Virus record (IMG/VR): IMGVR_UViG_3300006880_000022
Coordinates: 1 to 52,034 of that record
DNA: 52,034 nucleotides
From: a virus
Direction: 5' to 3' (one strand)
Shown here: positions 3,605-45,529 of the stretch, one piece after another
How the letters are laid out: every line of letters begins with the position of its first letter
Numbering within the stretch: position 1 is the stretch's first letter
Position numbers and translations under genes: made by a program
Notes under the pieces: model-generated
What the model was told of the DNA's origin: nothing
The model's database searches: none
What the model saw: the letters and a program-made list of their open reading frames with translations, nothing else

Positions 3605-3657
3605 TGCATCCATGATGATGAGAGTAAGCCCGTTGCGGATTTAAGGGGGTTGCTCTC

Positions 3658-4050
3658 ATTGGAACACCTAAATGGGTCCACGAAGATTTCGAAGCTCTCC
3701 CCAAGCGGAGAATTACCGTCCATTATTCAGAGTTAAAGTACCGGGTAAAGCACCTACTGACGTTGCGTAAAACGTGGCGGCATCGTATCGAGTGCTACCG
3801 AGGGAGACAGTTAGTCGGCTACATGACGTGGGAATGCAGCTTTAACAATCCGCTCGTGACCTGCGTACAAGTCCGAGCATCGTATCGACGTAATGGCATC
3901 GCCTCACAAATGTGGAGGGTAGCCAACCGCCTAGCCAATTTGTACGTAGTCTGTAGGCCAGTACACAGCCCAGAGCGCACGCACGCTGGCCAGTTGTGGG
4001 CAAAGTCAGTGGGCGGGATACTACCTAGGAGAGCGAGAGGCTGGGCATGA
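3658..4050 (+). CDS. GNAT-type acetyltransferase, apparent ATT start
   Basis: 130 residues. VQVRASYRRNGIAS is a clear acetyl-CoA binding motif A of the GNAT superfamily, followed by the alpha helix and a later strand. The frame is open back to 3628, but no ATG, GTG or TTG exists before TTG 3763, which would remove the first strand and helices. AAGGGGG (3643-3649) stands eight bases before ATT 3658, so an AUU initiator is proposed. Other readings: start at TTG 3763 with a shortened domain, or a sequencing slip. The target of acetylation is unknown. Confidence 0.6.
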   Translation: MGTPKWVHEDFEALPKRRITVHYSELKYRVKHLLTLRKTWRHRIECYRGRQLVGYMTWECSFNNPLVTCVQVRASYRRNGIASQMWRVANRLANLYVVCRPVHSPERTHAGQLWAKSVGGILPRRARGWA

Positions 4051-5939: not shown

Positions 5940-6157
5940 CATCGAGAGATTTCAATGACTCGGCCGTACGCGCAATGGTGGAGAATAATCATCGACCAAG
6001 GGAGTGCTACAAAACTAACAATGTCACTTTGGAACGCTACCTAGCAAGTATTCGCTGCGAGCTTGATAATGAGCACTGGCCGTGTCGCGCTGTCCAAGAT
6101 CTCAAGGCATGGCGAGACGCTGTTCAAAAGGCGACTCCGATTGACTTCACCAAATGA
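5936..6157 (+). CDS. Small hypothetical protein
   Basis: 73 residues, GTG 5936 overlapping the upstream stop as GTGA, with AAGGGG a few bases upstream. Mostly helical, charged, with two isolated Cys. It is translationally coupled to the sigma-like gene that follows. No family recognised. Confidence 0.55.
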   Translation: MTSRDFNDSAVRAMVENNHRPRECYKTNNVTLERYLASIRCELDNEHWPCRAVQDLKAWRDAVQKATPIDFTK

Positions 6158-6777
6158 ACGATGACGAGATTTACGCGACCTTGAATGAGTACCGCCCGTG
6201 GTTGATCCGAACCGCACTAGGTATCAAGTCCGATCCTGCTCAGGCTGAGGAGCTAATGCAAGAGGGTTGGATTGCTATGTGGCGGGCACTCATTGCCTAC
6301 GATGAACTCAAGGGCGAGTTATATGGATACTTGGTGACTCAAGCCCGCTGGCGTATGCTGTCTATCGCTACCGGGTCAGCCTACCTGTTATCTAGTGAAC
6401 GCCATGTACGTACGGTGTCCATAGGGCATAAGACCGTTATCCCCCCGACAGTAGAGGTACCAACGACCACGGGACTTGATAACCCTGTGATGCCGGAAAT
6501 TGATTCTATGATTACGGCCTATCACCACGGGGAGATATACGCCGCAATAAATGAAGAGCTTACACCAGTACAACGTGAGCGTGTATTCAAGCGATTTTGG
6601 CTTGGAATAGTGGACGGCAATACCACTTGGTGGAATGGTCGCCCCGCGTCGGGCAAGCGGTTACCAACTTGGAACACGGTTAAGTATCCAAACGGCCGGG
6701 TACAAGGGCGTGCCTATATAGGTGCTCGCGACAGATTGAGGAAACGCCTAGGTCACTTGAAGGGGATTGAGGAATGA
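6154..6777 (+). CDS. Sigma-70-like RNA polymerase sigma factor
   Basis: 207 residues. Residues about 25-75 match sigma region 2: D..QAEELMQEGWIAMWRA, then Y.....G.LYGYLV.QARWRM, the core-binding and -10 recognition helices. A region-4-like helix (LTPVQRERVFKRF) lies near residue 140, followed by an atypical basic C-terminal tail. Expected role: redirect host polymerase to phage promoters, probably middle or late ones. ATGA couples it to its neighbours on both sides. Its target promoters could not be identified. Confidence 0.75.
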   Translation: MNDDEIYATLNEYRPWLIRTALGIKSDPAQAEELMQEGWIAMWRALIAYDELKGELYGYLVTQARWRMLSIATGSAYLLSSERHVRTVSIGHKTVIPPTVEVPTTTGLDNPVMPEIDSMITAYHHGEIYAAINEELTPVQRERVFKRFWLGIVDGNTTWWNGRPASGKRLPTWNTVKYPNGRVQGRAYIGARDRLRKRLGHLKGIEE

Positions 6778-7157
6778 TCACACTAGAACAAGCTCGCGTG
6801 TTACTCGCACAGGCAGTAGCCACCCAACCCAAGGGTTTTAGGTATATCCAACCCGGCAAGATTGGTTGCTATTACGCTCCGGTCACGACCGCTCTTTCCC
6901 TTGCTACGCAGTTGGCAGGAGATGACCCCCGGCGGATCACCGGGTGCCTTATCGGAGTTGCTATTAGCCTATCAGGTGAGCGGCGACACCTAGAGGTTAA
7001 CGGCTCTGTGTCCGTACTCAAGGAAGTTTTCCCAGACATGCTGACAGCGGAAGCTGTTGATTACTTCACTGAGGCTCAGACTATACAAGATAATGGTGGC
7101 ACGTGGCAGGAAGCTTACGAAAAGGCTGAGGCATCTCTGGGGGAGAATAAGGAATGA
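6774..7157 (+). CDS. Paralogue A of a tandem pair
   Basis: 127 residues, ATGA-coupled. It shares its start (MITL..AR.LLAQAV.TQP.GFRY), a central GCLIGVA.SL.GE.RHL segment and a C-terminal WQEAY.KAE with the next gene. Family not recognised; the conserved DDPRR..GCLIG core may be the functional part. Confidence 0.6.
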   Translation: MITLEQARVLLAQAVATQPKGFRYIQPGKIGCYYAPVTTALSLATQLAGDDPRRITGCLIGVAISLSGERRHLEVNGSVSVLKEVFPDMLTAEAVDYFTEAQTIQDNGGTWQEAYEKAEASLGENKE

Positions 7158-7597
7158 TCACACTCCCTCGCGCCCGTGCCTTACTCGCACAGGCTGTTAC
7201 GACACAGCCTCCGGGGTTTAGGTACATGACCCCCAATCCTGGAGAACACTCATGCTTTTACCGTGCTCTTGACGCTGAGTTTATCGTCCACCTACGCACT
7301 GTCAGAGATTTCGCAGGTGGTTTAACCTATCGGCGATTGTTTTCTACACTGGAGTATGACGACCCCCGCCGCTGCACAGGGTGTCTTATCGGCGTAGCTC
7401 TCAGCCTGGCAGGCGAACACCGGCACCTAGACTTTGATAGTAGTGTGCGGGATCTTGCAATCAAGTTCCCTGACATGATGACCGGGCGCGCTGCCAATTA
7501 CCTGGCAGTAGCACAATCAGCACAAGATCAAGGGTGGACGTGGCAGGAAGCCTACAAAAAGGCTGAGTACACAGAAGAATTGAAATTCAATGACTGA
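7154..7597 (+). CDS. Paralogue B of a tandem pair
   Basis: 147 residues, overlapping paralogue A by ATGA. It matches paralogue A along its length but carries an extra insertion of about 20 residues before DDPRR. The first dozen bases of both genes are identical, pointing to a recent tandem duplication with later divergence. Function unknown. Confidence 0.6.
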   Translation: MITLPRARALLAQAVTTQPPGFRYMTPNPGEHSCFYRALDAEFIVHLRTVRDFAGGLTYRRLFSTLEYDDPRRCTGCLIGVALSLAGEHRHLDFDSSVRDLAIKFPDMMTGRAANYLAVAQSAQDQGWTWQEAYKKAEYTEELKFND

Positions 7598-7823
7598 GCC
7601 GGATTTTGAGATTCTAGATGAGGATGAGAGTCTGGACTACGGTTTTGAAATCAAAATATACGACGGTCTATACTTCTTGGTAGTGCTCCCCCACCAATGC
7701 GACGATTGGGTTATTGCGGGCGAGCCTTATTGTGGTGGTCCGAAGGCCCAAGCTGTCGCAGAATTGAAGGAATTCATTCGTCAAGCGCAAGCGTGCCTTG
7801 CGGAATTGGAGGCACATGAATAG
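7590..7823 (+). CDS. Small acidic protein
   Basis: 77 residues overlapping the upstream gene by eight bases. Very acidic N-terminus (EPDFEILDEDESLDYG), then beta strands and a C-terminal amphipathic helix. It lies directly before the exonuclease and overlaps its proposed start, so a DNA-mimic or nuclease partner role is possible; that is speculation. Confidence 0.55.
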   Translation: MTEPDFEILDEDESLDYGFEIKIYDGLYFLVVLPHQCDDWVIAGEPYCGGPKAQAVAELKEFIRQAQACLAELEAHE

Positions 7824-8680
7824 CTGATGACAAGGTTTACACATTCTATAGGGGTGATGACCGTTGGTACCGTGACGATACCCGTAGGCTAATGGTGCCT
7901 GGCGTTAGTGCCATCAAAGATATGATGCCTAAGCCCGCTATCGTCAAGTGGGCAGCTAGCCAGGCTGCTGAGTACGCCGTAAGCCATCTTAGATCTATTA
8001 ACGCCCTGGTGAACGATAAACAGCGAGATGAGGCTGTGCAGCTCATCACCGAGGCGTACCAACGGTACATGCGTAAGACTGGTAATAGAGGGACCCGGGT
8101 CCACACTGCCATTGAACGGCTCATAGCTGGCGAGCGACGCTTTCAAGTATCCAGCGAGGTGCTCGCGTACTTACGCCATTATGCGCGCTTCGTAAAGGAA
8201 TGGAAATTCACCCCCATTGAGTCTGAACGGGTGGTGTGGTCATTCGAGCATGAGTACGCGGGCCGGCTGGACTCCATTGCCCAGATTACCGTTCCGGAGC
8301 CCCGTACGGATAAACAGGCCGAATGTTTACGCGCGTCTTACCTCACCCCTGGGGAAAAACTAAGGGCACTGGTCGATTTCAAGACGGGCCAGTCAGGTAT
8401 CTGGGAAGACACCGCGCTACAGCAGGTAGCCTATGCCAAGGGTGATTACATCGTCTTAGAGGACGGTACACAGCGCGAGCTGCCCAAGATAGAGCACGCT
8501 TTTGCCTTATGGCTGCGCCCGGATGGCTGGGCCCTGCATATGTTAGATATCGGTGAATCTACATGGGCCCAGTTCCTCCGGTGTCGGGACACCTACCATT
8601 GGAAACGCGGCGATGCTAAGCGTGCGGTTTATAAGGCAGTTAATGCCAGGCCACTTAGGAGACAATGGAGTGGCAAGTGA
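7820..8680 (+). CDS. RecB/Cas4-type PD-(D/E)XK exonuclease, apparent ATA start
   Basis: 286 residues. Family motifs in order: a VPGVSAIK..MPKP.IV.WA N-terminal segment, GTRVHTAIE, GRLDSI (metal Asp), L.DFKTG (catalytic D-x-K), then LQQVAYA (QxxxY helix). The first ATG is 7892, but the frame is open to 7820 and the extra 24 residues belong to the family's usual N-terminus. GGAGG (7808-7812) is seven bases from ATA 7820, and ATAG overlaps the previous stop just as ATGA does elsewhere, so AUA initiation is proposed. Role: end resection or recombination during replication. Confidence 0.7.
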   Translation: MADDKVYTFYRGDDRWYRDDTRRLMVPGVSAIKDMMPKPAIVKWAASQAAEYAVSHLRSINALVNDKQRDEAVQLITEAYQRYMRKTGNRGTRVHTAIERLIAGERRFQVSSEVLAYLRHYARFVKEWKFTPIESERVVWSFEHEYAGRLDSIAQITVPEPRTDKQAECLRASYLTPGEKLRALVDFKTGQSGIWEDTALQQVAYAKGDYIVLEDGTQRELPKIEHAFALWLRPDGWALHMLDIGESTWAQFLRCRDTYHWKRGDAKRAVYKAVNARPLRRQWSGK

Positions 8681-32193: not shown

Positions 32194-32432
32194 TTACTTC
32201 CTATACTCTCCCATACCAAAGGCTTCCATCAATGTTCGAACCTTACTGGACCTCTCCGGAGCCTTAGATTCTTCTAGTGGGCTATCCAGCCATTGATTGT
32301 ATTCGTATATCTTATCGTCAATGTCGACAAGCTCCACCTCTACACCCTGAGATTTCGCTATTGCAGTCAACAGCCGTTCTGTCTGTGCACGCTGCTCTAC
32401 AGTGCTCAAGCGAATGACATAGATGAGCGAGA
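32194..32432 (-). CDS. Tail assembly chaperone T region (via -1 frameshift)
   Basis: This frame has no ribosome site and no ATG; its first possible start is a TTG at 32409. It is open upstream through the end of the preceding chaperone gene in the -1 frame, adding LRQLISLI and a GTFRSL stretch. In most siphoviruses the G and GT chaperones are made this way from one message. The GT fusion would help load tube protein on the tape measure. Confidence 0.75.
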
Positions 32433-32954
32433 TTAGTTGCCTGAGGTTGAGCGACCTGAACGTGCCTCGATACGTAGCATCAAAGCCCTTTGCAGATCCT
32501 CCCGCCCCTCCAAAAGCTTGAATGCCTCCTCCTCCGAAGGCGTATAAGATCCTACCTTCAAGTTCGAGTCTGTGCTCGAATCCCCATGCGCCGAGTCTCG
32601 CGACTCTTTCGTAGGGACCCCCGTCACCGCCGCCATTAGATCTTGAGACAGTTTCATTAAGTCATCAAGCTGTTGGCGGTGCTTCTTAGACAGAGCCCAA
32701 AACGTATCGAAGTCATCCTCATGGATAAGGCTACGTAGGTAATCCTTAATGGCAATAATAGCCTTGATATTAGCCTTAGCCGTAGCCTCATCATCACCTT
32801 GCTTATACTCTACACTAGCAGCAACCTCCATAAAGTCCATATAGTCGAGCGAAGATGCCTCAGGGTTAATCCTAATAGGCGTACCGAAATATTGAAAAGT
32901 CTCTTCCTCGTCTGCCTCATGCGAAGTACCAAAAATACCTAGATCCTTAGCCAA
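32433..32954 (-). CDS. Tail assembly chaperone G
   Basis: 173 residues from TTG after AAGGGGG. A helical, acidic N-terminal domain (YMDFMEVAASVEY, DYLRSLIHEDDFDTFW) is typical of siphovirus chaperones encoded between tail tube and tape measure. Its last 30 codons overlap the -1 frame of the T region. I did not find a classical heptamer; GGAGGGG and CAAAGGGC near 32480-32510 are candidate slip or stimulator sites. Confidence 0.75.
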   Translation of the reverse strand: MAKDLGIFGTSHEADEEETFQYFGTPIRINPEASSLDYMDFMEVAASVEYKQGDDEATAKANIKAIIAIKDYLRSLIHEDDFDTFWALSKKHRQQLDDLMKLSQDLMAAVTGVPTKESRDSAHGDSSTDSNLKVGSYTPSEEEAFKLLEGREDLQRALMLRIEARSGRSTSGN

Positions 32955-32979
32955 GTTTGTTGCCCCCTTAAACTGCTAA

Positions 32980-33558
32980 CTACGCGCGGCCATCGCCAGC
33001 GGTCCAAATTTCGAACGGCTGACCAGCGGCGGGAATTTCGAAGTTGAACGTACACGGGATGACGGCAAGCGCCGGAGCCTTCTTAAACGCCATCTTGACC
33101 TCACCACCCTGGAGAGCCTGATAAACAACAATGCGTACAGTATTGTCAAGCGATTCCCAACCAACCATCAATCGCTCTTCCTGACCAGGGGAGGGAAGGG
33201 TGTACTTATTGAGCTGTGTTAGACCAGTACCAGAGACCACCGTACGGGTACCACCATTAAAAGCAGCCTCTACACGAGCTAGAGTCCAATCAGCCAAGTT
33301 AAAGGCAAACGTACCGGATCGCTCCGTAGTGGAATACTTAATAGGATCGAAGAATTCCGCCACCATAGTAGGCTCCACCTTGGTGGAATAACTAAACTCG
33401 GAACCATCCTCGGTAGCACCGGCGGAACCCCAGGCAACCGGCCACGCATCGGTGAATACACCACCAGCCACAGTATTGACAGGTAGCGAACTACCCGGCT
33501 GGGCAAAGAACAAATAGCCCGGATCCTGGAGGATCGTAGGGCGTGCAACAGAAGGCAT
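32980..33558 (-). CDS. Major tail tube protein
   Basis: 192 residues, AAAGGTGG upstream. Beta-rich with long-strand motifs (GSEFSYSTKVEPTMVAEF, SGTFAFNLADWTLARVEAAF, VIPCTFNFEIP) typical of the siphovirus tail tube family. Position between tail terminator and chaperones supports it. Polymerises as hexamer rings around the tape measure. Confidence 0.75.
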   Translation of the reverse strand: MPSVARPTILQDPGYLFFAQPGSSLPVNTVAGGVFTDAWPVAWGSAGATEDGSEFSYSTKVEPTMVAEFFDPIKYSTTERSGTFAFNLADWTLARVEAAFNGGTRTVVSGTGLTQLNKYTLPSPGQEERLMVGWESLDNTVRIVVYQALQGGEVKMAFKKAPALAVIPCTFNFEIPAAGQPFEIWTAGDGRA

Positions 33559-33597
33559 TATCTAGCCACCTTTCTTCTTTTGTGCCCGTTTGTTGGG

Positions 33598-34053
33598 CTA
33601 ATCGAACAGCATGACGATTCTGACAACCGCCGACATAATGGCACCTCGGCCAGAGTTTGCGTCCATACCCTCTTCAAACTTTAAGGGCACTACCTTGACC
33701 ATTGACACACCCTGTATCCCCAGAGACTTACTCTGTGAAAACAGATCCTTTAAACTTAGATACATCTCTTTGACGCGGGCATTAGCCTGAGCTTGATTGT
33801 CCGCCGGCCAGTGCGACTCAATGAATACGGAGATATCAAAGGCTTCCCCATCGGGGTAACCCTCATACGGTACTACTCGCACAATCTCATTACCTAAGAC
33901 CCATTTTATATCACTAAACCAGATCAGTTCTTTAGGTAACCTATCCGTGTAAACCGAATCCCAAATTGCATCATCCTGATTCAATCTAGCGAACTGTGGC
34001 GCAGCTCTAGTGCGTTCTACCAATGCATCTTTTACTTCAAACGCAATGGTCAC
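33598..34053 (-). CDS. Tail terminator protein
   Basis: 151 residues from GTG, GTGA overlap with the connector gene. An alpha/beta pattern (VKDALVERTRA, FDISVFIESHW, ARVKEMYLSLKDLF) and the slot before the tube gene match the gpU-like tail terminator that caps the tube and joins it to the head. Confidence 0.6.
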   Translation of the reverse strand: MTIAFEVKDALVERTRAAPQFARLNQDDAIWDSVYTDRLPKELIWFSDIKWVLGNEIVRVVPYEGYPDGEAFDISVFIESHWPADNQAQANARVKEMYLSLKDLFSQSKSLGIQGVSMVKVVPLKFEEGMDANSGRGAIMSAVVRIVMLFD

Positions 34054-34934
34054 CCCACACCCCCTCTGGTGAGCTGGTGTTTATCAAGCACCACATCAAT
34101 ATCAGGGTCACCTACCCACGATCCACCGCGACCTGGAGTAGCCAAACTGAATGTTCCAAGCTCCGTCTGTTGCGTAGTTGCACGTCGATCAATACGTCCA
34201 GAGTCATCGATCAGCATATTACGAGCACGTTTGAGCGCGGCCCTTCTGATACGTACCGGTGGACTATTAGCCCCGTATTCATATTCGAGCACGATATTAG
34301 GGACAGATGATGCCGGCCAGACAAGCCCAGCCTTGAGCACCAAGATAAATGCATCATCGTCATCCGTAACTAAAAAGCCATCCTCCACCCAAGAGCTCTG
34401 GTCAACGTCATTTACCAATAAGGTAAGCGCTATTCGGGGCTCGGGCTTGCTCAAAACCAAGGGGTAATTAGTACCATTGCCCTGGAACAACTGACGATTA
34501 AAGCGTGGACGAAACGCACGACCACAGATATCTTCAAACTCCCTTTCAACCTCTTCTCTGACTTCGATTAGCTCTGAGTCAGGGAACCTGGTGGTATTCT
34601 CCAGTCCCGGTTTTGCGCGCAAGGCGGGGATGTCGAAGATAAACCCTCCAACAATCTCGATGAGATCATCAGCCATTACAGGGACACCATCCTTGATACC
34701 TTCGGCCAACACAGTAAGCTCATTGAGCAAAGCCTGTGGGGCTACAGGCCAGGTATATATCCCCACGCCCGTATGAGTAGCTGTACCAGAGGTCAGTAAG
34801 CTACCATCCGCTTTGTTAACTGTCACACTACACGTACCATCTAAGTCGAATGGAATACCCTGAGCATCAGTAAAGGTAATCTGAATGGTCGCAGGTGTAT
34901 TCCTAAGTATGCTGCGCGGAAGAATCTGCGCCAT
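34050..34934 (-). CDS. Head-tail connector with Ig-like N-terminal domain
   Basis: 294 residues (second ATG, six bases after AAAGGGG). The first 90 residues look like an Ig-like beta sandwich (ILRNTPATIQITFTDAQG...). The rest (FPDSELIEVREEVEREFEDICGRAF, then RIRRAALKRARNML) matches gp6-type head-tail adaptors with their helical dimer face. The added Ig domain probably displays on the neck surface. Confidence 0.6.
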   Translation of the reverse strand: MAQILPRSILRNTPATIQITFTDAQGIPFDLDGTCSVTVNKADGSLLTSGTATHTGVGIYTWPVAPQALLNELTVLAEGIKDGVPVMADDLIEIVGGFIFDIPALRAKPGLENTTRFPDSELIEVREEVEREFEDICGRAFRPRFNRQLFQGNGTNYPLVLSKPEPRIALTLLVNDVDQSSWVEDGFLVTDDDDAFILVLKAGLVWPASSVPNIVLEYEYGANSPPVRIRRAALKRARNMLIDDSGRIDRRATTQQTELGTFSLATPGRGGSWVGDPDIDVVLDKHQLTRGGVG

Positions 34935-34950
34935 CATTCACCCCTTTCAA

Positions 34951-35832
34951 TTAAGATACCCAAGCGGACCACACCACCGTGCCGTTGATACCGTGCACTA
35001 GCACTCGATATTCGTAGTCCACACCAGAAGCTGGAGTGTAATCGTCATAGAACGCGAGAGATTGAACCACACCAACTGTCATCACACCCTGCGCAGACAG
35101 ATTTGCAGCATTAGTTAGTGGCTTTGCCACCATATTTGACTGGGCAGAGATTGCCGATGATGCATTGGGCCCTGTCCTACCAATGACGGTAAGCCCGGAC
35201 TGGGCACTAAGCGCAGCCTGCCCAGCGATTCTAAGTGGCCAGAATGATGCGGAAATACCAAGCCGTGTGCTCGCCGTGGGACAATCCATTGAGTCCACAC
35301 CAGAGGCGCCAGGACCCCGGCGCTCTTCGAAACACGAACCGCTGGACGAGGGGGTTGCTACCTCGATAACCTCAAGGAATCCAGCGGGAGGGTTCCATGA
35401 ACCTGTAGCAGAAACCGTACCACAACAAATAAGCAAAGACTCAGGTGCGGGCAGGTCAATTGAATGGGTCTCTATCTCCGACCCAGTTAAACCAGACTCA
35501 TACTCGATGGAATCATGTAATGGATCAAATGGGTCAACGCCTCGGAAAATGAATACCCGGGCAGCCATACTGGCACCATTGGCAGTAAAAGTATAGCTAC
35601 CAGGCTCGGAGCCTCCGGCTATCTTAAATACCAGAGCGTTGCGATAACCGTTTCTAGAATTCTGTTGAACAATGGTCCAACCACTAGGCACACTGTCTAA
35701 CGATGTTGGGCCACCTACCCAGATGACGTGAGAAAGTAGAAGGTCACCAGTAGTAGTACCAGACGGTTTACCCGGAGAAATAGTGTCGTCGCCACTGCCT
35801 AGGGTACCAACGCCTTGCCCGGTAATAGCCAC
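34951..35832 (-). CDS. Head-region beta protein, short-repeat paralogue
   Basis: 293 residues from GTG. The N-terminal 180 residues are a jelly-roll-like domain (GDLLL..V, PSGWTIV, VFKIAGGSEPGSYTFT) homologous to the next gene upstream. It is followed by about three degenerate copies of the 20-residue repeat (ALSAQSGL, AISAQSNM, NLSAQGVM) and a fibronectin-like end (YRVLVHGINGTVVWSAW). The GRTGP signature is shared with one repeat of the longer paralogue. Likely a head or neck surface protein. Confidence 0.55.
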   Translation of the reverse strand: MAITGQGVGTLGSGDDTISPGKPSGTTTGDLLLSHVIWVGGPTSLDSVPSGWTIVQQNSRNGYRNALVFKIAGGSEPGSYTFTANGASMAARVFIFRGVDPFDPLHDSIEYESGLTGSEIETHSIDLPAPESLLICCGTVSATGSWNPPAGFLEVIEVATPSSSGSCFEERRGPGASGVDSMDCPTASTRLGISASFWPLRIAGQAALSAQSGLTVIGRTGPNASSAISAQSNMVAKPLTNAANLSAQGVMTVGVVQSLAFYDDYTPASGVDYEYRVLVHGINGTVVWSAWVS

Positions 35833-35844
35833 GTTTATACCCCC

Positions 35845-37545
35845 TTAGTTGGTGCGAACACGAGACACACCAGTTAATCCCCCAGGGGGGTTGTCTCCCG
35901 AGAGTTTCGCGAATCGTCGCCTCACTGGCCTTAGCACAAACATCTTACTAATCGCTGAAAGTGAAGCACTGAAGAATACATCACCGGTGACCCGGCCAAT
36001 AGCAAGTAGTGAAGACTCACCCTGCAATTGACTAGTACTAATTACACGAACATCAGCAAGCACGGTCAATGAGGTCTGAGAACTTAGCTGAGCTAATCCG
36101 ATAACCGAAACAGTACCAAGTGCAATTAGACTGCTTTGTCCAGAAAGGGCACTCGTCCCAAAGGAACTTACTACAGCCTGAGCTGTTAGTGTGCTCTCCG
36201 TAGATAGTGCTGCTCTAGCTCCGCCGAGCGTAGCCGCACACGTAAGGGATGACTGCCCATCCAATGGAGCGACAGCAAAGACCTTTACGCGTGCTGCGAC
36301 AATAAGTGAGCTATCGGCGGCAAGGTTAGCTTGGCTAAGGACCTTGACCACGCTGGTCGATATCAACGATGATTGTGCACTGAGCGCACTTAAAGCAGAG
36401 GGACCACGCCGACCAACGGTAATTGCAGAAGACTCAGCGACCAATGCCGATTGAGCGAAGCTATGAACTGTCGCAGCTAACGTCAAAGAAGTCTCAGAGC
36501 TTAGCGGTGCCGAACCTGGTACCTTGACATTACCAATAGCCACTAGGCTAGACTCAGAGGTCAGTGCTGCGGAGGCTTCCTTACGGACAGCACCGGCAGC
36601 AATCAATAAGCTTTCCGAGGATAAAGCACTAACAGCAAAGGTCTGAACCTTTGAAGTAGATACCAAGCTCGATTGGCTACTCAGTGCTGAGGCTGCAAAT
36701 ACCGTATCCTTGGCAGTGACAATTAGCGAAGACTCACTCACCAGTGCAGCGGCACCGAGCTTAACTGGAATACCAGTGGCAGTTAATGAACTGTCCGCCG
36801 CAAGCGCAGCACTACCCTCGACGACAGTTGCGGTAACCTCTCGTACCCGAATGAATAACTCAGGGCCAGCAACGTTGGTAGCAGTGGCCGGGACAGTGGC
36901 TGTGTGTGTTGGTGCTGCCGTACCACTGCCAGCGGTACAAGACTGTGGGGCACCACGTACAGCCATATCATTACCTAGAGTGGTTTCATTATATGGCGTA
37001 TTGCTCAGGTCGAATGATAAAGTACAACCGGTAAGCGTTTGAGATTCAGAGGTCCAAGCCCCCGAAGTCGCATCAGTGGGAATAGCACAAGCTGTCAGGA
37101 GCTTGTCACCCGAGGCCATTTGAATGGTCTGACCGGCGGTCACAGACCAGCTCGACCCGGCCGAGTCATCCGAACCATTGGCTACGGCAATGCTATAGAC
37201 ACCACTCGTTGCCCTACATTGGTAGATAAACCCACCGGCAACACTGGGCGAGTTACCAACCGTAACGTCTAGAGTCCCGGATTCGCTACCCGTGGCAACC
37301 TTATAGAAGACTTTGATTTTCAACGGCCCGGTATCAACACCAACCGCGCCAGTACCACCGGTCTTTTCTCCGTTTGTCGGATCAGTCCATCCGCCGGGAG
37401 TTGTAATAGTAGATGTATCAGGCTTTACCGCTACTATAGCAATAAGTATGTCCCCGGCCGATACAGTAGGGTAAGGAATAGCAAGGGGGGAGGGAGTGGC
37501 ATCGAAAACTGGGGTACCAACAGGGCCAATGTATGTTAGCGACAT
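35845..37545 (-). CDS. Head-region repeat fibre protein
   Basis: 566 residues from ATG 37545 (GGAGAGGGT upstream; the TTG 15 bases earlier lies within the ribosome site). The N-terminal 240 residues are jelly-roll-like (VSAGDILIAIVAV, PGGWTDP, FYKVATGSESGTLDV). Then 14-15 tandem repeats of exactly 20 residues follow, consensus SALSxxSSLxxxAxVxxFAx. The basic tail reads RPVRRRFAKL. It lies between capsid and connector genes, so a capsid-displayed fibre of beta-solenoid type is proposed. Confidence 0.6.
   Translation of the reverse strand: MSLTYIGPVGTPVFDATPSPLAIPYPTVSAGDILIAIVAVKPDTSTITTPGGWTDPTNGEKTGGTGAVGVDTGPLKIKVFYKVATGSESGTLDVTVGNSPSVAGGFIYQCRATSGVYSIAVANGSDDSAGSSWSVTAGQTIQMASGDKLLTACAIPTDATSGAWTSESQTLTGCTLSFDLSNTPYNETTLGNDMAVRGAPQSCTAGSGTAAPTHTATVPATATNVAGPELFIRVREVTATVVEGSAALAADSSLTATGIPVKLGAAALVSESSLIVTAKDTVFAASALSSQSSLVSTSKVQTFAVSALSSESLLIAAGAVRKEASAALTSESSLVAIGNVKVPGSAPLSSETSLTLAATVHSFAQSALVAESSAITVGRRGPSALSALSAQSSLISTSVVKVLSQANLAADSSLIVAARVKVFAVAPLDGQSSLTCAATLGGARAALSTESTLTAQAVVSSFGTSALSGQSSLIALGTVSVIGLAQLSSQTSLTVLADVRVISTSQLQGESSLLAIGRVTGDVFFSASLSAISKMFVLRPVRRRFAKLSGDNPPGGLTGVSRVRTN
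35940..36813 (-). repeat. Tandem 60-bp coding repeats (20 residues)
   Basis: Within the fibre gene the ALS..SSL motif recurs every 20 residues for about 14 units, with only one or two units off by a residue. Codon use differs between units, so the array is old and kept by selection on the protein rather than freshly amplified. Fixed spacing implies one structural coil per unit. Confidence 0.75.
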
Positions 37546-37563
37546 ACCCTCTCCCCCCAACTA

Positions 37564-37950
37564 CTAGCTAATCGTCAAATCAAGCTCTCCAGCCAAAACG
37601 GTAAACGTGTCACCGGAGTTGGTTACCTTGCTCGCGGTCAGCGCGCCATGCCAGAGACGGACTGGGGTACCAGCACTATCCCAAATAGCAACGTGCGTAA
37701 CCGTAGCGGCAGGCATATTAGTAAAGTTGACATCAGCCGTGTTAGCCGTAGCACCACCAGACGCAGCAGAAAACGCTATATTCTGTCGGGCATAAGAACC
37801 ACCGGTCACCTCGGTACCCGTCGCGGAATCAGAAGGGGCCGATGTGTATAGCGCAAGCTTTAACGACGTTGTCGGACGTGTTGGCGAACCAACACCTAGG
37901 ATCCAATCAAGGATCAGATTCTCAGCGGTATCGGTGAGGTTATCAGCCAT
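37564..37950 (-). CDS. Small head/tail beta protein
   Basis: 128 residues, strong GGAGGGGG upstream. LKLALYTSAPSDSATGTEVTGGSYARQ, then VTHVAIWDSAGTPVRLWHG is a widespread phage family often labelled tail-fibre-like or decoration. Directly downstream of the major capsid gene, so a capsid decoration role is favoured here. Confidence 0.6.
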   Translation of the reverse strand: MADNLTDTAENLILDWILGVGSPTRPTTSLKLALYTSAPSDSATGTEVTGGSYARQNIAFSAASGGATANTADVNFTNMPAATVTHVAIWDSAGTPVRLWHGALTASKVTNSGDTFTVLAGELDLTIS

Positions 37951-38025
37951 TTAGTGGCCCCCTCCTTCTCAAATAGATAGTGTGTAGAGGGAGAATCGGA
38001 GTAGTGAATCTCCCTCCACAATTGA

Positions 38026-39387
38026 CTACGTAGTAGAAGTGAACTTAATCGAGGCGCCCGTGTCAAACAACTTGCCGTCCAGATACATGACACCCTTGAT
38101 ACCAACGAGATCATTCTCGAAGTAAACGTCATTAGAACGCTCCACCCGCATAGTGCCAACCACACGAGCGTAATACTTAGAGAAGTCTGCAAAGATGGCC
38201 TGAATGGTACCGTTAGTGGCAGCGGTGGCCATGTCAGGGTTAGTCAATACCGGATAACCAAGAATGCTGTCAGGCTGAGCCGGATCCTTTACCGCATCAT
38301 AAATGAAGTGGTTAGCCGGATCCTTAATCAATCGAACCTTCTTGACAATGGCACGGTTCATCATGAACTTGGCATTACGCGCGTACTTTTCACCGATACC
38401 ATAGATAAGTTCGATAATATCATCGTGCTTGGAAATACCACCAAGGGCTACCGAACCGGTAGGTGCATAGTTGAGAGTAGTCTGCGTAACAATACCACCC
38501 GGACTCTGCGCACCGGCAGTACCAAGGGTAAGGTCAAGAGCAGTTACCGAACCAAGCACATCACCGAGATCCTCAGCCATAAGCGACTCACCATCGAAGA
38601 CAGTGAAATCAGCGAATTCACGAGAAGCCTGGATAATCTGAGCATACTTAATAGCACCCAGAGTCTCAGTCGTGAACGAGCCCTTAGTCTTGGCAATGGT
38701 CGCGGCTTCCTGAGACACAACCGTAGTACGGTTGGCCGCAGGGCTGGACGCCTTGACCGATCGTACCTTCTTAGGCAAAGTCAGAACTTCATTTCGCTCA
38801 GTGGTAATAATGCGAATACCCGACTCAAAGATCGGGTTGGTCGCTACCAGCGCACGATAAAGCTCCCTGACGAACGTACCAGGGTTGATTTCCTGACCTT
38901 CACCGGCAGCCGCAGACGCAGAACCACCGACGTTAAAGAACACCTCGGCGCGTTCCTCAGCCTCACGACCGTAACGACCGGACAGCGCCAGCGTATGGCG
39001 AACATCCGACAGCTTCAATTCAAAGCCCTGCTTATCGCCGGAAACTACAGAACGAAGCTCTTCCGAAAACTCCTTGTCAACCTTTGCACGACCAGAAAGA
39101 TCCCGCCTACCACCACCACTGCCACGCCGTTCTAGCGCAGCCTTAGCCGCAGCTTCCTGCTCAGCCGTACGCTTCTCTTCCTCACGGTCAAATTCCTCAT
39201 TCCGGCGCTCACGATTGATCAGATCCTCATAACGATCAATATCCGCATTGGCACGGTTATACTTCTGATCGGCAGTTGCGATCTGCTCGTTAGTGAGACC
39301 TTCCTGCGCTGCCTCCTCCGCAGCGGCCCGCGCAGCCTGCACAGCCTGCATCCGCTTCTCAGATAGATCCTTAATTCGATCAGACAT
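38026..39387 (-). CDS. Major capsid protein, HK97 fold
   Basis: 453 residues from ATG 39387 (AAAGGA upstream). The first 110 residues are a charged coiled-coil scaffold (delta) domain (EKRMQAVQAARAAAEEAAQEG), which the prohead protease would remove. The remainder has the HK97 pattern: N-arm, E-loop region (PKKVRSVKASSPAANRTTVV), spine helix and a VVGTMRVERSNDVYFENDLVGIKG P-domain end. Confidence 0.85.
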   Translation of the reverse strand: MSDRIKDLSEKRMQAVQAARAAAEEAAQEGLTNEQIATADQKYNRANADIDRYEDLINRERRNEEFDREEEKRTAEQEAAAKAALERRGSGGGRRDLSGRAKVDKEFSEELRSVVSGDKQGFELKLSDVRHTLALSGRYGREAEERAEVFFNVGGSASAAAGEGQEINPGTFVRELYRALVATNPIFESGIRIITTERNEVLTLPKKVRSVKASSPAANRTTVVSQEAATIAKTKGSFTTETLGAIKYAQIIQASREFADFTVFDGESLMAEDLGDVLGSVTALDLTLGTAGAQSPGGIVTQTTLNYAPTGSVALGGISKHDDIIELIYGIGEKYARNAKFMMNRAIVKKVRLIKDPANHFIYDAVKDPAQPDSILGYPVLTNPDMATAATNGTIQAIFADFSKYYARVVGTMRVERSNDVYFENDLVGIKGVMYLDGKLFDTGASIKFTSTT

Positions 39388-39466
39388 ATTAGCTGATCCT
39401 TTCTGTTTAGCTCCCTGTGGAGCGAGATACATATTCAAATGTGGGTGATCTCTCGGCCCACGGGAG

Positions 39467-40147
39467 TTAGAACTCTTTGAGAGCCCTTTCTAGCCGATCA
39501 AGAGCATCAATGCGTCGCTTCCAAATGGTAGTATCACGTGGGGTGGATTCCTCCGGCCCTGCGGAACCTTCACCATTGATTGCACGTTTGATAGCGTCTA
39601 CATCGGACAAGTCTGTAACGTTGCGCCCACTACGATGAGCTAAACCATATAGTGCATTGCTTCTTAGCCCGCTGGTCGTAGTCAGATAGGCAGGATAAGT
39701 AACTGGAGACACATCGACTAATTGAACTTCCTTGAGAGTCCTGAGAATTACGTCTCCGTCTTCCTCCCAGTCATCATCAATTGCACGAAAAGCAAAGGAG
39801 CTTTCCCTGATGTCCTGGCGTTCCATCAAAACACGAAGATCACGAGCATAGGTGGTATCGGGAAGCAATACCTCATAAGGGAGACCCTTACTATCCGTGC
39901 TGACCTTCAGAGTCCCCGCACTAGACCGACCAAGCAACCTATTCTCGTCGTGATTGATAACAGCGCGAACATCCGACTCCTTCAATGTCTTATTGAATGC
40001 CTTCCTGTCCACCTGCTCAATAAACCCGCCTAGATCTGGGCTGCGAACATTGAATAGCGCAGCATAACCCTCGACTAAGTACTTATCGCCAACCGATCTA
40101 ATCTCTACATCATGCACCGTAAGTCGGCGCTCTAGTGGTCCCTTCAC
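39467..40147 (-). CDS. Prohead maturation protease (HK97 U9/S78 family)
   Basis: 226 residues from GTG, GTGA overlap with the portal gene. VEGYAALFNVRSPDLGGFIEQV, VINHDENRLLGRS (His) and RESSFAFRA (Ser) are the family signatures, followed by VSPVTYPAY. It cleaves capsid delta domains inside the prohead. Confidence 0.85.
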   Translation of the reverse strand: MKGPLERRLTVHDVEIRSVGDKYLVEGYAALFNVRSPDLGGFIEQVDRKAFNKTLKESDVRAVINHDENRLLGRSSAGTLKVSTDSKGLPYEVLLPDTTYARDLRVLMERQDIRESSFAFRAIDDDWEEDGDVILRTLKEVQLVDVSPVTYPAYLTTTSGLRSNALYGLAHRSGRNVTDLSDVDAIKRAINGEGSAGPEESTPRDTTIWKRRIDALDRLERALKEF

Positions 40148-41358
40148 TTGGCACCATCCTTTCCGGTGGGGGTTGGCTTCTTAGCCGGCACCTTTCCATT
40201 AAGCGTTTGACCCTCACGCAGCTTGTCCCCACCTTCAATACGAGGTAGGCCCAGATTCTTACGAGCTTCGTTGGGTGTAGCGACACCTTCCTTAACCAGA
40301 TTTGTCCAAGTCTCCGCTGCCTCAGCGAACGTGCCTCGGAGTAGCTCTGACTTATTTAGCCGGATGAATAGACCTAGTCCATCGCCACCTGGTGAATAAG
40401 CGGTATAGGTCTCTTCCCATCGCTGAATCCAGGGCGCATAGGTGGACTGCACAAGAGACGTATTCTGCTCGGCCAGTCCAGAACCCCAACTAGTTTCCTT
40501 GGAGATAACACCAACCTTGTGTGGGGGAACCCGCAACCATCGAGCTACATCCAATGCTTGGAATTCTCGAGACTCTAAGAACTGAGCATCCTCTGGCGGG
40601 ATAGAAATTGTCTTGAGATCCGTCCCCTGTGGACCGGACAATACTGAAGGTCTATGCCAGTTAGTGGGCCCACGATGGGCACGCTCATAGTTTCGAATAG
40701 TCTGCTTTACCTGGTTATCGTCAAGAATCTTTCCCGGCAAAACCAATACGGTCTTGGAGAAACTACCCTGAGAGAAGTACCTAGCTCCGAATTCCTCAAG
40801 TGTGAGACCGAGCGAGATTGACTCACTTGCAGCATTGATTACTGACATACCCGTGGGCTTGCCCGGCTTAGTAGGACCTTGCAAATGGAATATTTCCCTA
40901 GGGCCTAGCCACGGTCCGGCATTAATCTGGTAACGCCTGGATACACCCTCCATCTTGGGAACCCATTCACAGTGAACAGTCTTGGTGTCAAGAGGGACCA
41001 TACCAATGATTACGTCATCACTAGACCGTCTGAGAAGTTGTGCATAACCATTACCATGACATAGTACCGAAGTCTGTAACTGATTACGAACTAATGAAGG
41101 GCGCAGCTCAGGGTGAGGTTTCCTAATCCACTGAGGCAATGGACGAACATCAATCTTACCATCCTCTGATTCAACGAATGCCTCAGGCGTTAGACTGGCA
41201 ACGGCATCAGCGATCAACGTCACGCCGGACCAAAACACTGAATATTTAAATGCTACATCCTCGTCTACACGCTTACCCGACGCTGTAGGCTGTCCCCGAG
41301 CCCAGTCCGGAACGTCATACCAAATCGGTTCGGCGCGCGTTTCCTTCTTTCGAAACAC
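40144..41358 (-). CDS. Portal protein, HK97 family
   Basis: 404 residues from GTG, six bases after GGGAGG. Features: N-terminal VFWSGVTLIADAVASL helix, GNGYAQLLR, an FHLQGPTKPGKPTGMSVI region and DVARWLRVPPHKVGVISKETSWGSGLAEQ typical of HK97-like portals; Pro/Lys-rich C-terminus. It forms the dodecameric DNA channel. Confidence 0.88.
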   Translation of the reverse strand: MFRKKETRAEPIWYDVPDWARGQPTASGKRVDEDVAFKYSVFWSGVTLIADAVASLTPEAFVESEDGKIDVRPLPQWIRKPHPELRPSLVRNQLQTSVLCHGNGYAQLLRRSSDDVIIGMVPLDTKTVHCEWVPKMEGVSRRYQINAGPWLGPREIFHLQGPTKPGKPTGMSVINAASESISLGLTLEEFGARYFSQGSFSKTVLVLPGKILDDNQVKQTIRNYERAHRGPTNWHRPSVLSGPQGTDLKTISIPPEDAQFLESREFQALDVARWLRVPPHKVGVISKETSWGSGLAEQNTSLVQSTYAPWIQRWEETYTAYSPGGDGLGLFIRLNKSELLRGTFAEAAETWTNLVKEGVATPNEARKNLGLPRIEGGDKLREGQTLNGKVPAKKPTPTGKDGAK

Positions 41359-41532
41359 CTACTCACCTCCCGATCTCTCAAGTTCCAGGCCCACATAGAA
41401 AAACACGCCGGCTAAGCACAAGGCCCCCAGGCTAAAGCCGACTACCCACCCCAGATAAACACTCGCAATTACAGTGCTACTGCATACAGCAATAAAGAGA
41501 CCGACGAGCTGTAAAATATCACCTACTCCCAC
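41359..41532 (-). CDS. 57-residue two-helix membrane protein
   Basis: It lies between TerL and portal. GTG 41532 is seven bases after GAGGAGG and overlaps the TerL end by ten bases; the stop TAG touches the portal start. Two hydrophobic helices (LQLVGLFIAVCSSTVIASVYL and WVVGFSLGALCLAGVFFYVGL). A membrane protein inside the packaging module is unusual; a holin-like or antiholin role is possible. Confidence 0.6.
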   Translation of the reverse strand: MGVGDILQLVGLFIAVCSSTVIASVYLGWVVGFSLGALCLAGVFFYVGLELERSGGE

Positions 41533-43223
41533 TCGTCGACCTCCTCATCAGTCTCGTATAGTTCCTGGTCTGTGAATGAATGGAATTCAGCCATAACAAA
41601 CTCAGGCAGAGCCTCCATTACACAGAGCGCATTTACCATGGCAGTAATACCATCGATGTTGTCCGAGCTAAGTGCTTTATCAGGCTTGATATTGCGTTCA
41701 TTGTCTTGCTTATACGCAGCATTATCAGCCATCCATCGCATAATGGGGTTGTGATTAGTAGACAACCTACGTAAACCCATCTCACGGGTAAGGGCCTTAG
41801 CTCCTGAATTCATTCGACCAGTGGTTTGCGGGATCTTTACCATGGGAAGACTGGTACGCGAATCGATGTGCTTAGCTATAGATACAGCGTTATATCCATC
41901 GTAACCAATAGCTTGTAATTCAAACTTCTCAATGTCCCCAAGAATACGCTCCTCGATCACATCATAATCGTGAATCTCTTCCTCAAATACAGTCAGATAA
42001 CCTTGCTCTTCCCAACGAAGAAACGCGGAGACCATTTTCTTATGATGAAGCTCAATAGCTTTACGAGTAATCCAGAAATGGGGAATTACCCGGACGCCTT
42101 CAGAGGTTTGAAACACCATCACCCATGCGGTCAGGTCAGACACCTCAGCCAGGTCTAGACCACCAATGCCGGGTACACCTCGTAGGTCTTCCTCAGTCCA
42201 CCCTGCCGAGTTATCTTCACTCTCATCCCACACGCGCAGATCTAGCCAGCGATTCTTTCCAGTCCCCCAACGATTGAGCCGGAAGATACAAAAGTTATTG
42301 ATTTGTGATAGGTCACCCTTGTTTTGTAGCTCGATAACCTCATCACGAATAGTCTGAATATCAAAGAATGAACCGAGCGCGGGCATTGCCTCCGGCCAAT
42401 GGCTCTCATCTTTCCAGTCCACGCCCTCTGGCACACTGGCAACACAAACGAATCTCTTAGGGTCTAGGTTAGGGTTCTCCGCAACCTGGAGACTAAACTC
42501 ATGCTCAACAAACGCAAAGGTCTCCCGATCCCATCCCGCCGTCGTAATACCAAATAGCAATGGATCAGGTCGAGTACCGAAGCCCTGGCGTAGTGAGTCC
42601 CACAAACGCTCATCAGGCTGGGCTAAAACCTCATCGAATAATACGGCGAACGCATTAGCTCCAAGGTTACCAGCGGCATCAGCCGCAATCACACGATAAA
42701 TAGAGCGCGAGGGCACATGGATAATTCGCTTGGTAGAATCAATTACCTTGATCTCACCGAGTCGCTTCATTCGGGAAAGCACAGGGGACAATAGGACCAT
42801 ATCCCTAGCCACATTGAAAACAGCGGCGGCCTGGTCCTTATCGGATGCTGCGCTATAGATTTCAGCGCCAGCCTCACCACAAGCAAGTAACAGGTAAAGC
42901 CCTAATGCCGCCACCAACTCTGACTTACCTTGCTTACGAGCTAGCTCGATCCAAGCAAGCGTGAACTGCCTAACCCACTTACGGTGCATCGCATTCCAAC
43001 GTACCGCACCAAATAGAGGGGCGACAATACCATCAAATCTCCATATACCATTGTCATCCTGCCACGCTTCACCCCGTTGCCAGGGATCCATAATGAATGG
43101 CTTACCAGAATATGAAGACTTGGTGTGGACTGTCGCCCTCTCGACAAACTTAACAGCGCGGTTGGCACGCTTTAAACTAAACTTGGCTCCGTCAGGGAGC
43201 CTAGTTGTCTGCACTAATGGCAT
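41523..43223 (-). CDS. terL: Terminase large subunit
   Basis: 566 residues. ATPase: RKQGKS Walker A (96-101) and VLFDE Walker B (D197, E198). Nuclease: GGLDLAEVSDLTAW (D357) with later AIGYDGYN and LSSDNIDG acidic motifs of the RNase H-like fold. It pumps DNA through the portal and cuts at the end site. Family typical of P27-TerS/HK97 phages. Confidence 0.92.
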   Translation of the reverse strand: MPLVQTTRLPDGAKFSLKRANRAVKFVERATVHTKSSYSGKPFIMDPWQRGEAWQDDNGIWRFDGIVAPLFGAVRWNAMHRKWVRQFTLAWIELARKQGKSELVAALGLYLLLACGEAGAEIYSAASDKDQAAAVFNVARDMVLLSPVLSRMKRLGEIKVIDSTKRIIHVPSRSIYRVIAADAAGNLGANAFAVLFDEVLAQPDERLWDSLRQGFGTRPDPLLFGITTAGWDRETFAFVEHEFSLQVAENPNLDPKRFVCVASVPEGVDWKDESHWPEAMPALGSFFDIQTIRDEVIELQNKGDLSQINNFCIFRLNRWGTGKNRWLDLRVWDESEDNSAGWTEEDLRGVPGIGGLDLAEVSDLTAWVMVFQTSEGVRVIPHFWITRKAIELHHKKMVSAFLRWEEQGYLTVFEEEIHDYDVIEERILGDIEKFELQAIGYDGYNAVSIAKHIDSRTSLPMVKIPQTTGRMNSGAKALTREMGLRRLSTNHNPIMRWMADNAAYKQDNERNIKPDKALSSDNIDGITAMVNALCVMEALPEFVMAEFHSFTDQELYETDEEVDEWE

Positions 43224-43245
43224 TCAATGAGCCCCCTCAAATCCA

Positions 43246-43572
43246 CTAGCTTAGAACGGCAAAAGTCACATCCACATCGGTAGACCAGGTCAGCGACACG
43301 AGGTTATCCGCCCCACGATAACCAGCATCTGGAACACGAATGAAAATAGACCCACCGGAACCAACAGCAGGGATAGTGTCCACCCGATCCGCTACAGCTA
43401 GATCAGCATCGAATACGGCAACAGTGACAAGGGTCAACGTGCGGGAGGCCGCATTTGCATTCTTGACATGTAGCAAACTGCCCGGCGGTACCTTATCACC
43501 GCCAGCGCTGGCCGGGTGATAGGTGGGCTGTAGACCAGAGCTGGTAACAAGCTGGGGGGTACGAGTAGCCAT
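43246..43572 (-). CDS. Small beta-sandwich protein between TerS and TerL
   Basis: 108 residues, AAAGAGG upstream. All-beta, Ala/Val/Thr-rich (LLHVKNANAASRTLTLVTVAVFDADLA), similar to small head-fibre or decoration proteins found in actinophage head modules. Its place between terminase subunits is unusual but seen in relatives of this architecture. Function inferred. Confidence 0.5.
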   Translation of the reverse strand: MATRTPQLVTSSGLQPTYHPASAGGDKVPPGSLLHVKNANAASRTLTLVTVAVFDADLAVADRVDTIPAVGSGGSIFIRVPDAGYRGADNLVSLTWSTDVDVTFAVLS

Positions 43573-43604
43573 TTAAAGCACCTCTTTCTGTGTGTTAAAA
43601 ATGC

Positions 43605-44096
43605 CTATTTGGCATCCTCGGTTTCATCTTCATCAGTATTAAGCAAGCTGTTAAGGTCTTCACCATCATCGCCAGGTAGTTTCATTCGTGCCCTACTAGA
43701 AGGGGTCATACCAAACTCAGCGGCCAAAGACCGCAATGAGTTAGTGGCTGACGCAAAGGATGCGAGCGCGGGGTTTCGTACCGGCCCCCGGGCACCGGCA
43801 ATGGTCATTCCAGCTTTCTTTATTTCACGCAGCGCCTTCACCATTACTCCCACGTTCGCACAGTATGCAGCAAAGGGGATAATGTCTGCCTCAGTCAGAA
43901 GCCCATTAGCATGAAGAAATGGACCACAGCGGCGCCATTCCTTTTTACCTACCAAGTCGAGCCAAGTAGGCGGATTAGGTAGGGAGTCCAAGGGTTTAGG
44001 CTCAAACTCTTCGCCAGCCTTAGGCAGCCGTCGCTTACCTGGATTTCCATTCAGCACTTTAGTTACAGTTGGTACTGCTTTTCGCCCTACCGTCAT
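43605..44096 (-). CDS. terS: Terminase small subunit, P27 family
   Basis: 163 residues, TAATG overlap with the preceding gene. GRKAVPTVTKVLNGNPGKR and P.PPTWLDLVGKKEWRRCGPFL are hallmarks of the P27-like family; the helical middle and acidic tail (NTDEDETEDAK) also fit. It recognises the packaging site and recruits TerL. Confidence 0.85.
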   Translation of the reverse strand: MTVGRKAVPTVTKVLNGNPGKRRLPKAGEEFEPKPLDSLPNPPTWLDLVGKKEWRRCGPFLHANGLLTEADIIPFAAYCANVGVMVKALREIKKAGMTIAGARGPVRNPALASFASATNSLRSLAAEFGMTPSSRARMKLPGDDGEDLNSLLNTDEDETEDAK

Positions 44097-44488
44097 TAGC
44101 TCCCCCCTTTCTCCTGAATTACTAGGCGCTGCTCCATATCAGCGATAGTCATCCTTAGCTCAGAAATTGTACGTTTGAATTGCACACAGGTATCTTCCAA
44201 AGCTCCAATGCGCTCGTCTTTGTCTTCGATCTCTCGCCTCAACTGCAATTGCTGCTGACGCAATTGGGTCTCTGACTCCTGTGTAATCCGTAGCATCTTT
44301 TCCATTACCTCTAGGGCATTCTCTGCACCACGCACAGCAATGGAATCACGCTCAGCCCGCGCCTTGATAGTTAATTCACTGGCGTCTATAGCTTCCTTTT
44401 TACGATCCCTCAGAAATTTGTACAAGTTAATGGCTGTACCAATCGCTGCCAACGCAAAAGCAGCAATAGCCAAAAGTGTACTTATCAC
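44096..44488 (-). CDS. N-anchored coiled-coil membrane protein
   Basis: 130 residues from GTG, GTGA overlap with the gene before it. One N-terminal membrane helix (LLAIAAFALAAIGTAINLYKFL), then a long charged coiled coil (ERDSIAVRGAENALEVMEKML...). The layout resembles inner spanins (Rz), though it is far from the lysis genes. It may organise packaging or lysis at the membrane. Confidence 0.55.
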   Translation of the reverse strand: MISTLLAIAAFALAAIGTAINLYKFLRDRKKEAIDASELTIKARAERDSIAVRGAENALEVMEKMLRITQESETQLRQQQLQLRREIEDKDERIGALEDTCVQFKRTISELRMTIADMEQRLVIQEKGGS

Positions 44489-44952
44489 TTGTGCTTTTCC
44501 GTTTCATCCAATAGCAAGCTCTCCAGTCGCCGCGTGCGGTACTTGATGAACTGGCCGAGTACCCAGTACCTAGCACCCATTGCCAAAGCGAAAACGGTAT
44601 ACGTTAGGAATACGAACATTGATTGAGGTAGAAACGCCGCAACGGCCGTACCAAAGATGATAGTCAATGCGAGCAGATTGACCACTCCGATACGCTCGAT
44701 GTAATAATTAGCTATCGCTATGCCTACCAAGGTCATCCCGCCTCCCACCACCATTCCAGCCGCCCAGCCATAGACCGCCCACAATGGAAACTGTGTCATG
44801 ATCGATGTTGGCGCGAGTAGGCCAGGGTTGATCAAAATAGGTAAACCGGACACTAAACACAATAGCGCAAGAAACGCCTCAACAGATGTGAAAAGTAATG
44901 AATATAGAACTTTTCGCCACCCCAAGGCAGAGATCATTGTGCGCAGCAACAC
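44485..44952 (-). CDS. Four-helix membrane protein, first late gene
   Basis: About 155 residues. GTG 44952 (or TTG 44949) is favoured because GGGAGG lies just upstream; the longer reading to 45069 has no ribosome site. Four membrane helices (VLYSLLFTSVEAFLALLCLV; WAAGMVVGGGMTLVGIAIA; LLALTIIFGTAVAAFL; FVFLTYTVFALAMGA) and a basic C-terminus. Unknown; heads the late operon with a coupled coiled-coil partner. Confidence 0.5.
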   Translation of the reverse strand: MLLRTMISALGWRKVLYSLLFTSVEAFLALLCLVSGLPILINPGLLAPTSIMTQFPLWAVYGWAAGMVVGGGMTLVGIAIANYYIERIGVVNLLALTIIFGTAVAAFLPQSMFVFLTYTVFALAMGARYWVLGQFIKYRTRRLESLLLDETEKHK

Positions 44953-45403: not shown

Positions 45404-45529
45404 ATGTGTCTCTGTCGCCGTTGCGGCATTGAGGTTACGTACGAATGGTTCGGCTGGTGTCATGTGAAGACCACAACCCACCGGCCAGTAATCCCACTAG
45501 CGGTGCTCATACACCAGCTAGAAAAGTGA
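45404..45529 (+). CDS. 41-residue zinc-knuckle protein
   Basis: ATG 45404 is seven bases after GAGG and just behind the leader hairpin; a longer reading would pass through the hairpin. CLCRRCGIEV and a later WCH give Cys/His ligands for zinc. First gene of the right-arm operon, so probably abundant early. Role unknown. Confidence 0.55.
   Translation: MCLCRRCGIEVTYEWFGWCHVKTTTHRPVIPLAVLIHQLEK

Follow-up and report, generated by a model that had tools for sequence, protein, structure and literature searches.

Where does translation of a phage exonuclease gene begin when the stretch of its frame in which relatives start contains no ATG, GTG or TTG? The question is raised by positions 7808-7894 of the window, as the whole analysed stretch is called here, a virus record of 52,034 bases with 51% G+C. 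The features concerned are the following.

7590-7823, plus strand: upstream ORF of 77 aa, whose TAG stop (7821-7823) overlaps ATA
7793-7815, plus strand: possible 7-bp hairpin GUGCCUU...GGAGGCAC, which covers the Shine-Dalgarno sequence; stability not unusual
7808-7812, plus strand: Shine-Dalgarno sequence GGAGG, 7 nt before ATA, read directly
7816-7827, plus strand: out-of-frame mini-ORF ATG AAT AGC TGA, near the terminating TAG 7821
7817-7819, plus strand: TGA in the exonuclease frame, barring any start farther upstream
7820-7822, plus strand: ATA, the proposed AUA initiation codon, aligned at or a few residues off the start codons of relatives
7820-8680, plus strand: predicted PD-(D/E)XK (Cas4/RecB/MGME1-like) phage exonuclease (phrog_298, tblastn and MGME1 profile), read from ATA 7820
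7827-7892, plus strand: 21-codon out-of-frame mini-ORF, linked to the previous mini-ORF through TGATG and to ATG 7892 through TAATG
7892-7894, plus strand: ATG, the first canonical start in frame, with a weak Shine-Dalgarno sequence; a start here would drop 24 family residues

Organization of the start region

Direct reading bore out the layout described in the initial annotation, namely GGAGG seven nucleotides from ATA, a frame opening right after an upstream stop (TGA 7817-7819) and an overlap of ATA with TAG, the two triplets sharing the bases TA in ATAG (7820-7823). The exonuclease frame cannot be extended upstream because this TGA lies in it, and no ATG, GTG or TTG is present among its codons from 7820 to 7891; ATA 7820 is the sole near-cognate codon at a good Shine-Dalgarno spacing in frame between TGA 7817 and ATG 7892. 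From 7820 to 8677 the frame runs through 286 codons with no stop. The upstream 77-aa ORF (7590-7823) has no PHROG match.

The likeness of the ATA/TAG overlap to the ATGA joints of the operon, also pointed out initially, was found as well. Joints of four nucleotides, either ATGA or GTGA, are common in the operon holding the exonuclease gene, with ATGA at 6154, 6774 and 7154 and GTGA at 5936, all upstream; another GTGA occurs at 13978. On the plus strand of the window, 22 ORFs that are 60 codons or longer end in an ATA context followed by G or A. ORF 7590-7823 is the only one to combine a Shine-Dalgarno-like tetramer with an ATA frame that stays open for 60 codons or more and lacks a canonical start within 20 codons. 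On the minus strand, none of the 14 ORFs of this length ending in the same context has an ATA frame open for at least 60 codons. Between 7816 and 7892 of the plus strand, the out-of-frame mini-ORFs are chained via TGATG and TAATG and end at ATG 7892.

Identity of the gene product

On the basis of sequence comparison, frame 7820-8680 is predicted to encode a PD-(D/E)XK exonuclease of the phiC31 type (phrog_298, phiC31 gp1). The match to phrog_298 covers residues 8-274 of the 286-residue frame (E 2.1e-31), and the exonuclease MGME1 was reached by a profile search (E 2.1e-5). A tblastn search matched 247 phage records, at least 80% of the query being covered in 239; the matched phages are mostly those of Microbacterium, Arthrobacter, Streptomyces and Curtobacterium, with phiC31 included. 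Residues H95, E136, D151, D186 and K188, invariant in 17 of the 17 aligned rows, are taken by us to be the active-site positions (His, Glu, Asp and D-x-K). Since they are intact, the gene is no evident pseudogene.

Pfam gave no relevant match for the exonuclease. No DNA-level relatives of the window were found among phages, no close relatives of the exonuclease in IMG/VR by a single-protein scan, and none in bacterial genomes by two scans; the scan for relatives used a 4-row alignment, the 17-row one being too diverse. A structure model of the protein has a mean pLDDT of 63, with values below 50 for the N-terminal 61 residues, and as a model it provides neither support for the N-terminus nor an argument against it.

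Start positions in related phages

The position of the start was examined in 17 annotated phage genes, picked across the ranking of the 247 tblastn matches. In six of them (L003, L004, L005, L010, L011 and L057) the match from query residue 1 begins exactly at the annotated start, and the remaining genes start between about 5 residues before and about 5 after that residue. The start codons of 16 were read (9 GTG and 7 ATG), that of L057 being left unread. Five more distinct relatives from IMG/VR were added, with starts assigned by the analyst, namely ATG in L039, L040, L044 and L045 and TTG in L041; L042 and L043, identical to L041 here, were dropped, and L035-L038 duplicate the loci of L039, L040 and L042.

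All 22 relatives with a located start begin at or within about 6 residues of ATA 7820, and none near the equivalent of ATG 7892. The claim of the initial annotation, according to which the family's N-terminal segment is encoded upstream of the first ATG, thus survives the comparison on which it had been staked, that of the starts of homologues. The alignment it had proposed also revealed that relatives carry canonical codons, ATG among them, at or near the ATA position: ATA was the start in none of the 21 codons read, all of which are ATG, GTG or TTG. When the window was aligned with 21 relatives (without L057), their starts were located 19-31 residues before the Pro of a VPGV motif and the ATA of the window 26 residues before it; ATG 7892 would sit two residues before this Pro.

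The closest relative, L039, is 43-45% identical. Its exonuclease ATG (2995) overlaps the TGA (2996-2998) of a 102-aa ORF (2690-2998) as ATGA (2995-2998), which stands exactly where the window has ATAG. By eye, this 102-aa ORF and the 77-aa ORF of the window look unrelated; hence the correspondence of ATGA and ATAG would be one of layout rather than of shared ancestry of the joint. In L040, L041, L044 and L045, three to six tRNA genes lie upstream of the exonuclease gene, and in L041, L044 and L045 they stop some 20 nt short of its start. The window is devoid of tRNA genes.

Coding of the segment upstream of ATG 7892

A profile built from the N-terminal columns of the 21 relatives, with the window excluded, was used to rank every peptide of 15 aa or more from the six frames of the window. 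The 7820 frame came first (E 0.0018), followed by a runner-up with an E-value of 0.064. Residues 2-24 scored 67 against L039, a value reached by none of 20,000 codon shuffles, while the two other frames over the segment scored 14 and 8. Against L040, L003 and L006 the score was reached by 235, 7 and 0 of 20,000 shuffles, respectively. Profile rank and codon shuffles thus back the initial assignment of this segment to the family, and at the level of sequence it can be regarded as demonstrated, along with the layout of the site, that the family N-terminus is encoded before ATG 7892 and that the relatives start at the same place.

The pattern of substitutions was compared as well. In an alignment of 19 N-terminal codons, L039 shares 11 residues, five of them through synonymous codons, and the bases differ at 4 first, 4 second and 10 third positions (10 of 18 in the third). 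Identity to L039 amounts to 11/21 in residues 1-24 versus 111/256 in the rest of the protein. The N-terminal part is slightly more conserved than the rest in L003 and L006, whereas it is less conserved in L040, L041, L044 and L045 (5-6 of 21-22 versus 91-96 of 242 elsewhere).

Initiation signals and proposed mechanism

With a generic anti-Shine-Dalgarno tail, the ATA site pairs at -9.3 kcal/mol with a spacing of 6-7 nt. Pairing as good as this was found at 3.05% of 4,000 random positions, and GGAGG 4-10 nt upstream at 0.7%. For ATG 7892, the corresponding pairing is only -2.6 kcal/mol at 2 nt. The same GGAGG is shared by the out-of-frame ATG 7816, at 2-3 nt, and ATG 7827, at 13 nt. The hairpin covering GGAGG was considered as a coupling switch and rejected: its z-score of -1.87 in a hand-picked 33-nt window is borderline, and wider windows gave -0.87, -1.33 and +0.66.

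The reading that we favour, and hold to be reasonably probable, is that translation of the exonuclease begins at AUA 7820 by reinitiation, which would be the least complicated way of obtaining the complete family protein. Ribosomes completing the 77-aa ORF would halt at UAG 7821-7823 with GGAGG 7808-7812 beside the anti-Shine-Dalgarno sequence; the P site would then be one base off AUA, and some ribosomes could slip back by a single base and use fMet-tRNA to begin anew on AUA, which overlaps the stop. Initiation at AUA is probably coupled to the termination event at UAG; some 30S subunits may also bind GGAGG de novo. The yield of exonuclease would probably be low compared with AUG because the third base of AUA pairs improperly, and such a start might limit the level of the nuclease. 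E. coli infC, which is not a phage gene, starts on AUU, likewise a rare AUH codon and one considered to hold expression down, and is autoregulated by IF3.

Alternative explanations

Several points count against an AUA start, namely the weak AUA initiation known from the literature, the absence of ATA from the 21 start codons read in relatives, a hairpin that is not significant, an upstream ORF with no PHROG match and a joint that resembles that of L039 in layout only, and a site for which no second independent sequence turned up. The last point bears on an unlikely explanation, in which an error of sequencing or assembly, or an indel of one base among the reads, conceals a canonical start of the real genome. 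Either 7820 would in fact be ATG, or one base fewer between 7819 and 7826 (e.g. near 7825) would bring ATG 7816 into frame, giving M-N-S-D-D-K and an 8-nt overlap like that at 7590/7597. ATG 7816 indeed follows GGAGG at a distance of 3 nt, which recurs at 11797 in this phage, and the window is a virus contig for which a pattern search allowing any third base in ATA found no other contig over the site. However, ATG at 7820 would turn TAG into TGG and so abolish the stop that forms the 4-nt joint; with G at 7822, the upstream ORF would continue for another 23 codons as far as TAA 7890-7892, so that an ATGA joint would not simply be restored. Site 7820 does not lie in a homopolymer either, and L019, together with L034 plus L046, all from IMG/VR, agrees with the window at every one of 40,311 bases (11,683-32,655 and 32,697-52,034), with the qualification that these contigs may share reads with the window and that neither L019 nor L034/L046 reaches 7820. 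At 32656-32696, a gap of 41 bases is flanked by the ends of two contigs identical to the window.

It is also rather unlikely that the exonuclease starts at ATG 7892 without its first 24 residues, the upstream coding being left over from a start codon since lost. ATG 7892 is the first ATG, and the overlapping mini-ORFs (7816, TGATG 7827, TAATG 7892) could pass terminating ribosomes on to it; moreover, with the N-terminal 61 residues modelled at low confidence, their importance is not established by the fold model. Against this stand the very weak Shine-Dalgarno sequence of ATG 7892, the 0 of 22 relatives that start there and the absence of decay, N-terminal identity to L039 being no lower than in the rest and the differences falling mostly in third positions. 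In the same low-confidence model, truncation would cut a predicted strand pair (17-19/24-26). Loss of the start codon could instead have turned the gene off, making it a null or near-null allele, which we consider very unlikely. Natural ATA starts can be null, as in silCR of one streptococcus, where the consulted part of PMC2766830 describes an ATG to ATA change as preventing the SilCR peptide, and ATA is private to the phage of the window among the sequences read. Nevertheless, a well-placed GGAGG has been retained, the frame and active-site residues are intact and the N-terminus is under coding constraint, a pattern with which a fresh mutation would still be compatible. Least probable is frameshifting, either +1 at AGC UGA after a start at ATG 7816 or -1 at GAA UAG, fusing the 77-aa ORF to the exonuclease. 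Both starting frames adjoin the exonuclease frame at the site, but a slippery heptamer is absent, re-pairing of the P-site tRNA is absent in the +1 and -1 cases alike, and in the relatives the genes are separate, with starts of their own.

Precedents and significance

Initiation at AUA 7820 would have its nearest bacterial parallel in Staphylococcus aureus infC, ccpN and citZ, which, according to the consulted part of PMC13009471, natively start on AUA, have strong Shine-Dalgarno sequences and are expressed below the AUG level. In the exonuclease gene, too, no canonical start fits the conserved N-terminus and a strong Shine-Dalgarno sequence lies at normal spacing. In the S. aureus cases, AUA reporters of ccpN and citZ grown in poor medium reached about 10% of the AUG level, and in rich medium that of ccpN reached up to 30% (PMC13009471, consulted in part); elsewhere, AUA initiation is cited as up to 1% of AUG (PMC12864459, consulted in part). 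The S. aureus genes differ in being cellular and, as far as the consulted part of that paper goes, are not described as stop/start overlaps (PMC13009471); moreover, the noncanonical codon of ccpN is conserved among relatives (PMC13009471, same part), unlike the exonuclease ATA, found in 0 of the 21 start codons read.

As to the overlap itself, the 4-nt AUGA overlaps of phages, such as SPP1 genes 1/2 and 42.1/42.2, have the same operon layout, with the start overlapping the end of the upstream gene (PMC6316719, consulted in part). In the present case, likewise, the start shares bases with the upstream stop, and the overlap recurs at the homologous joint of L039. In contrast to the AUGA overlaps described in the consulted part of PMC6316719, the stop here is TAG; the overlapping start can only be ATA, never ATG, GTG or TTG, and the joint is therefore invisible to standard gene callers. 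The exonucleases of phiC31 (gp1) and other actinophages (Cas4 family, phrog_298) share full-length homology, start position and conserved active-site positions with that of the window, but those whose start was read begin on GTG or ATG instead of ATA. Reinitiation at noncanonical starts has been reported in a eukaryotic system (PMC4648390, consulted in part), a result that is not drawn on as evidence here. Among the open-licence papers listed by keyword searches, none dealt with an AUA start in a phage gene, as judged by titles and abstract beginnings, which does not imply its absence from print.

If AUA works here, some phage genes are annotated with N-termini that are too short, and stop-proximal reinitiation would be a context where an otherwise inefficient start codon suffices; bacterial AUA starts are already documented, which limits the surprise (PMC13009471, consulted in part). 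As a tentative and rather doubtful generalization, phage genes ending in UAG might hand ribosomes over to a natural AUA via ATAG, a joint missed by gene callers restricted to ATG, GTG and TTG and serving here as a nuclease throttle, and a second AUH start (AUU 3658) may hint at relaxed start selection in the host.

A second candidate gene and additional observations

The stop-to-stop frames of the window were compared with the contigs of three relatives. In the GNAT-like frame 3628-4050 (plus strand), for which the Pfam match is below the cutoff, homology extends upstream of the first canonical start, TTG 3763: an L-x-Y-R motif at 3733-3744 is common with L039 (1021-1377), and phage Tonenili shows a comparable L-R-Y motif. 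The candidate start ATT 3658 has AAGGGGG 8 nt upstream (-11.4 kcal/mol), which the out-of-frame TTG 3659 could use as well, and another candidate, ATT 3712, aligns better with the GTG of L039. A further distant relative, L059, matches only from residue 59 and is uninformative on this point. This gene, too, may be without a canonical start, an assignment informed by one close relative and weaker in its evidence than that of the exonuclease. Other flagged frames were rejected, being, as judged by position, apparent antisense or out-of-frame shadows of other genes, the probable tail chaperone with its frameshift at 32661 on the minus strand, or extensions no longer than 7 codons.

At about 32195-32975 of the minus strand lies the second frame of a probable tail assembly chaperone pair, a role presumed from its position. 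Homology is present 74 codons ahead of any canonical start in this frame, as it is in the relative G002, and points to a likely programmed frameshift. ORFs 6774-7157 and 7154-7597 (plus strand) are tandem paralogues, 51% identical over 138 positions and both assigned to phrog_572. In G002 they match different halves of one 280-codon frame; the two are either fused in G002 or split in the window. In addition, ORF 6154-6777 (plus strand) exhibits a weak match to the phage sigma-factor family phrog_351 (E 0.003).
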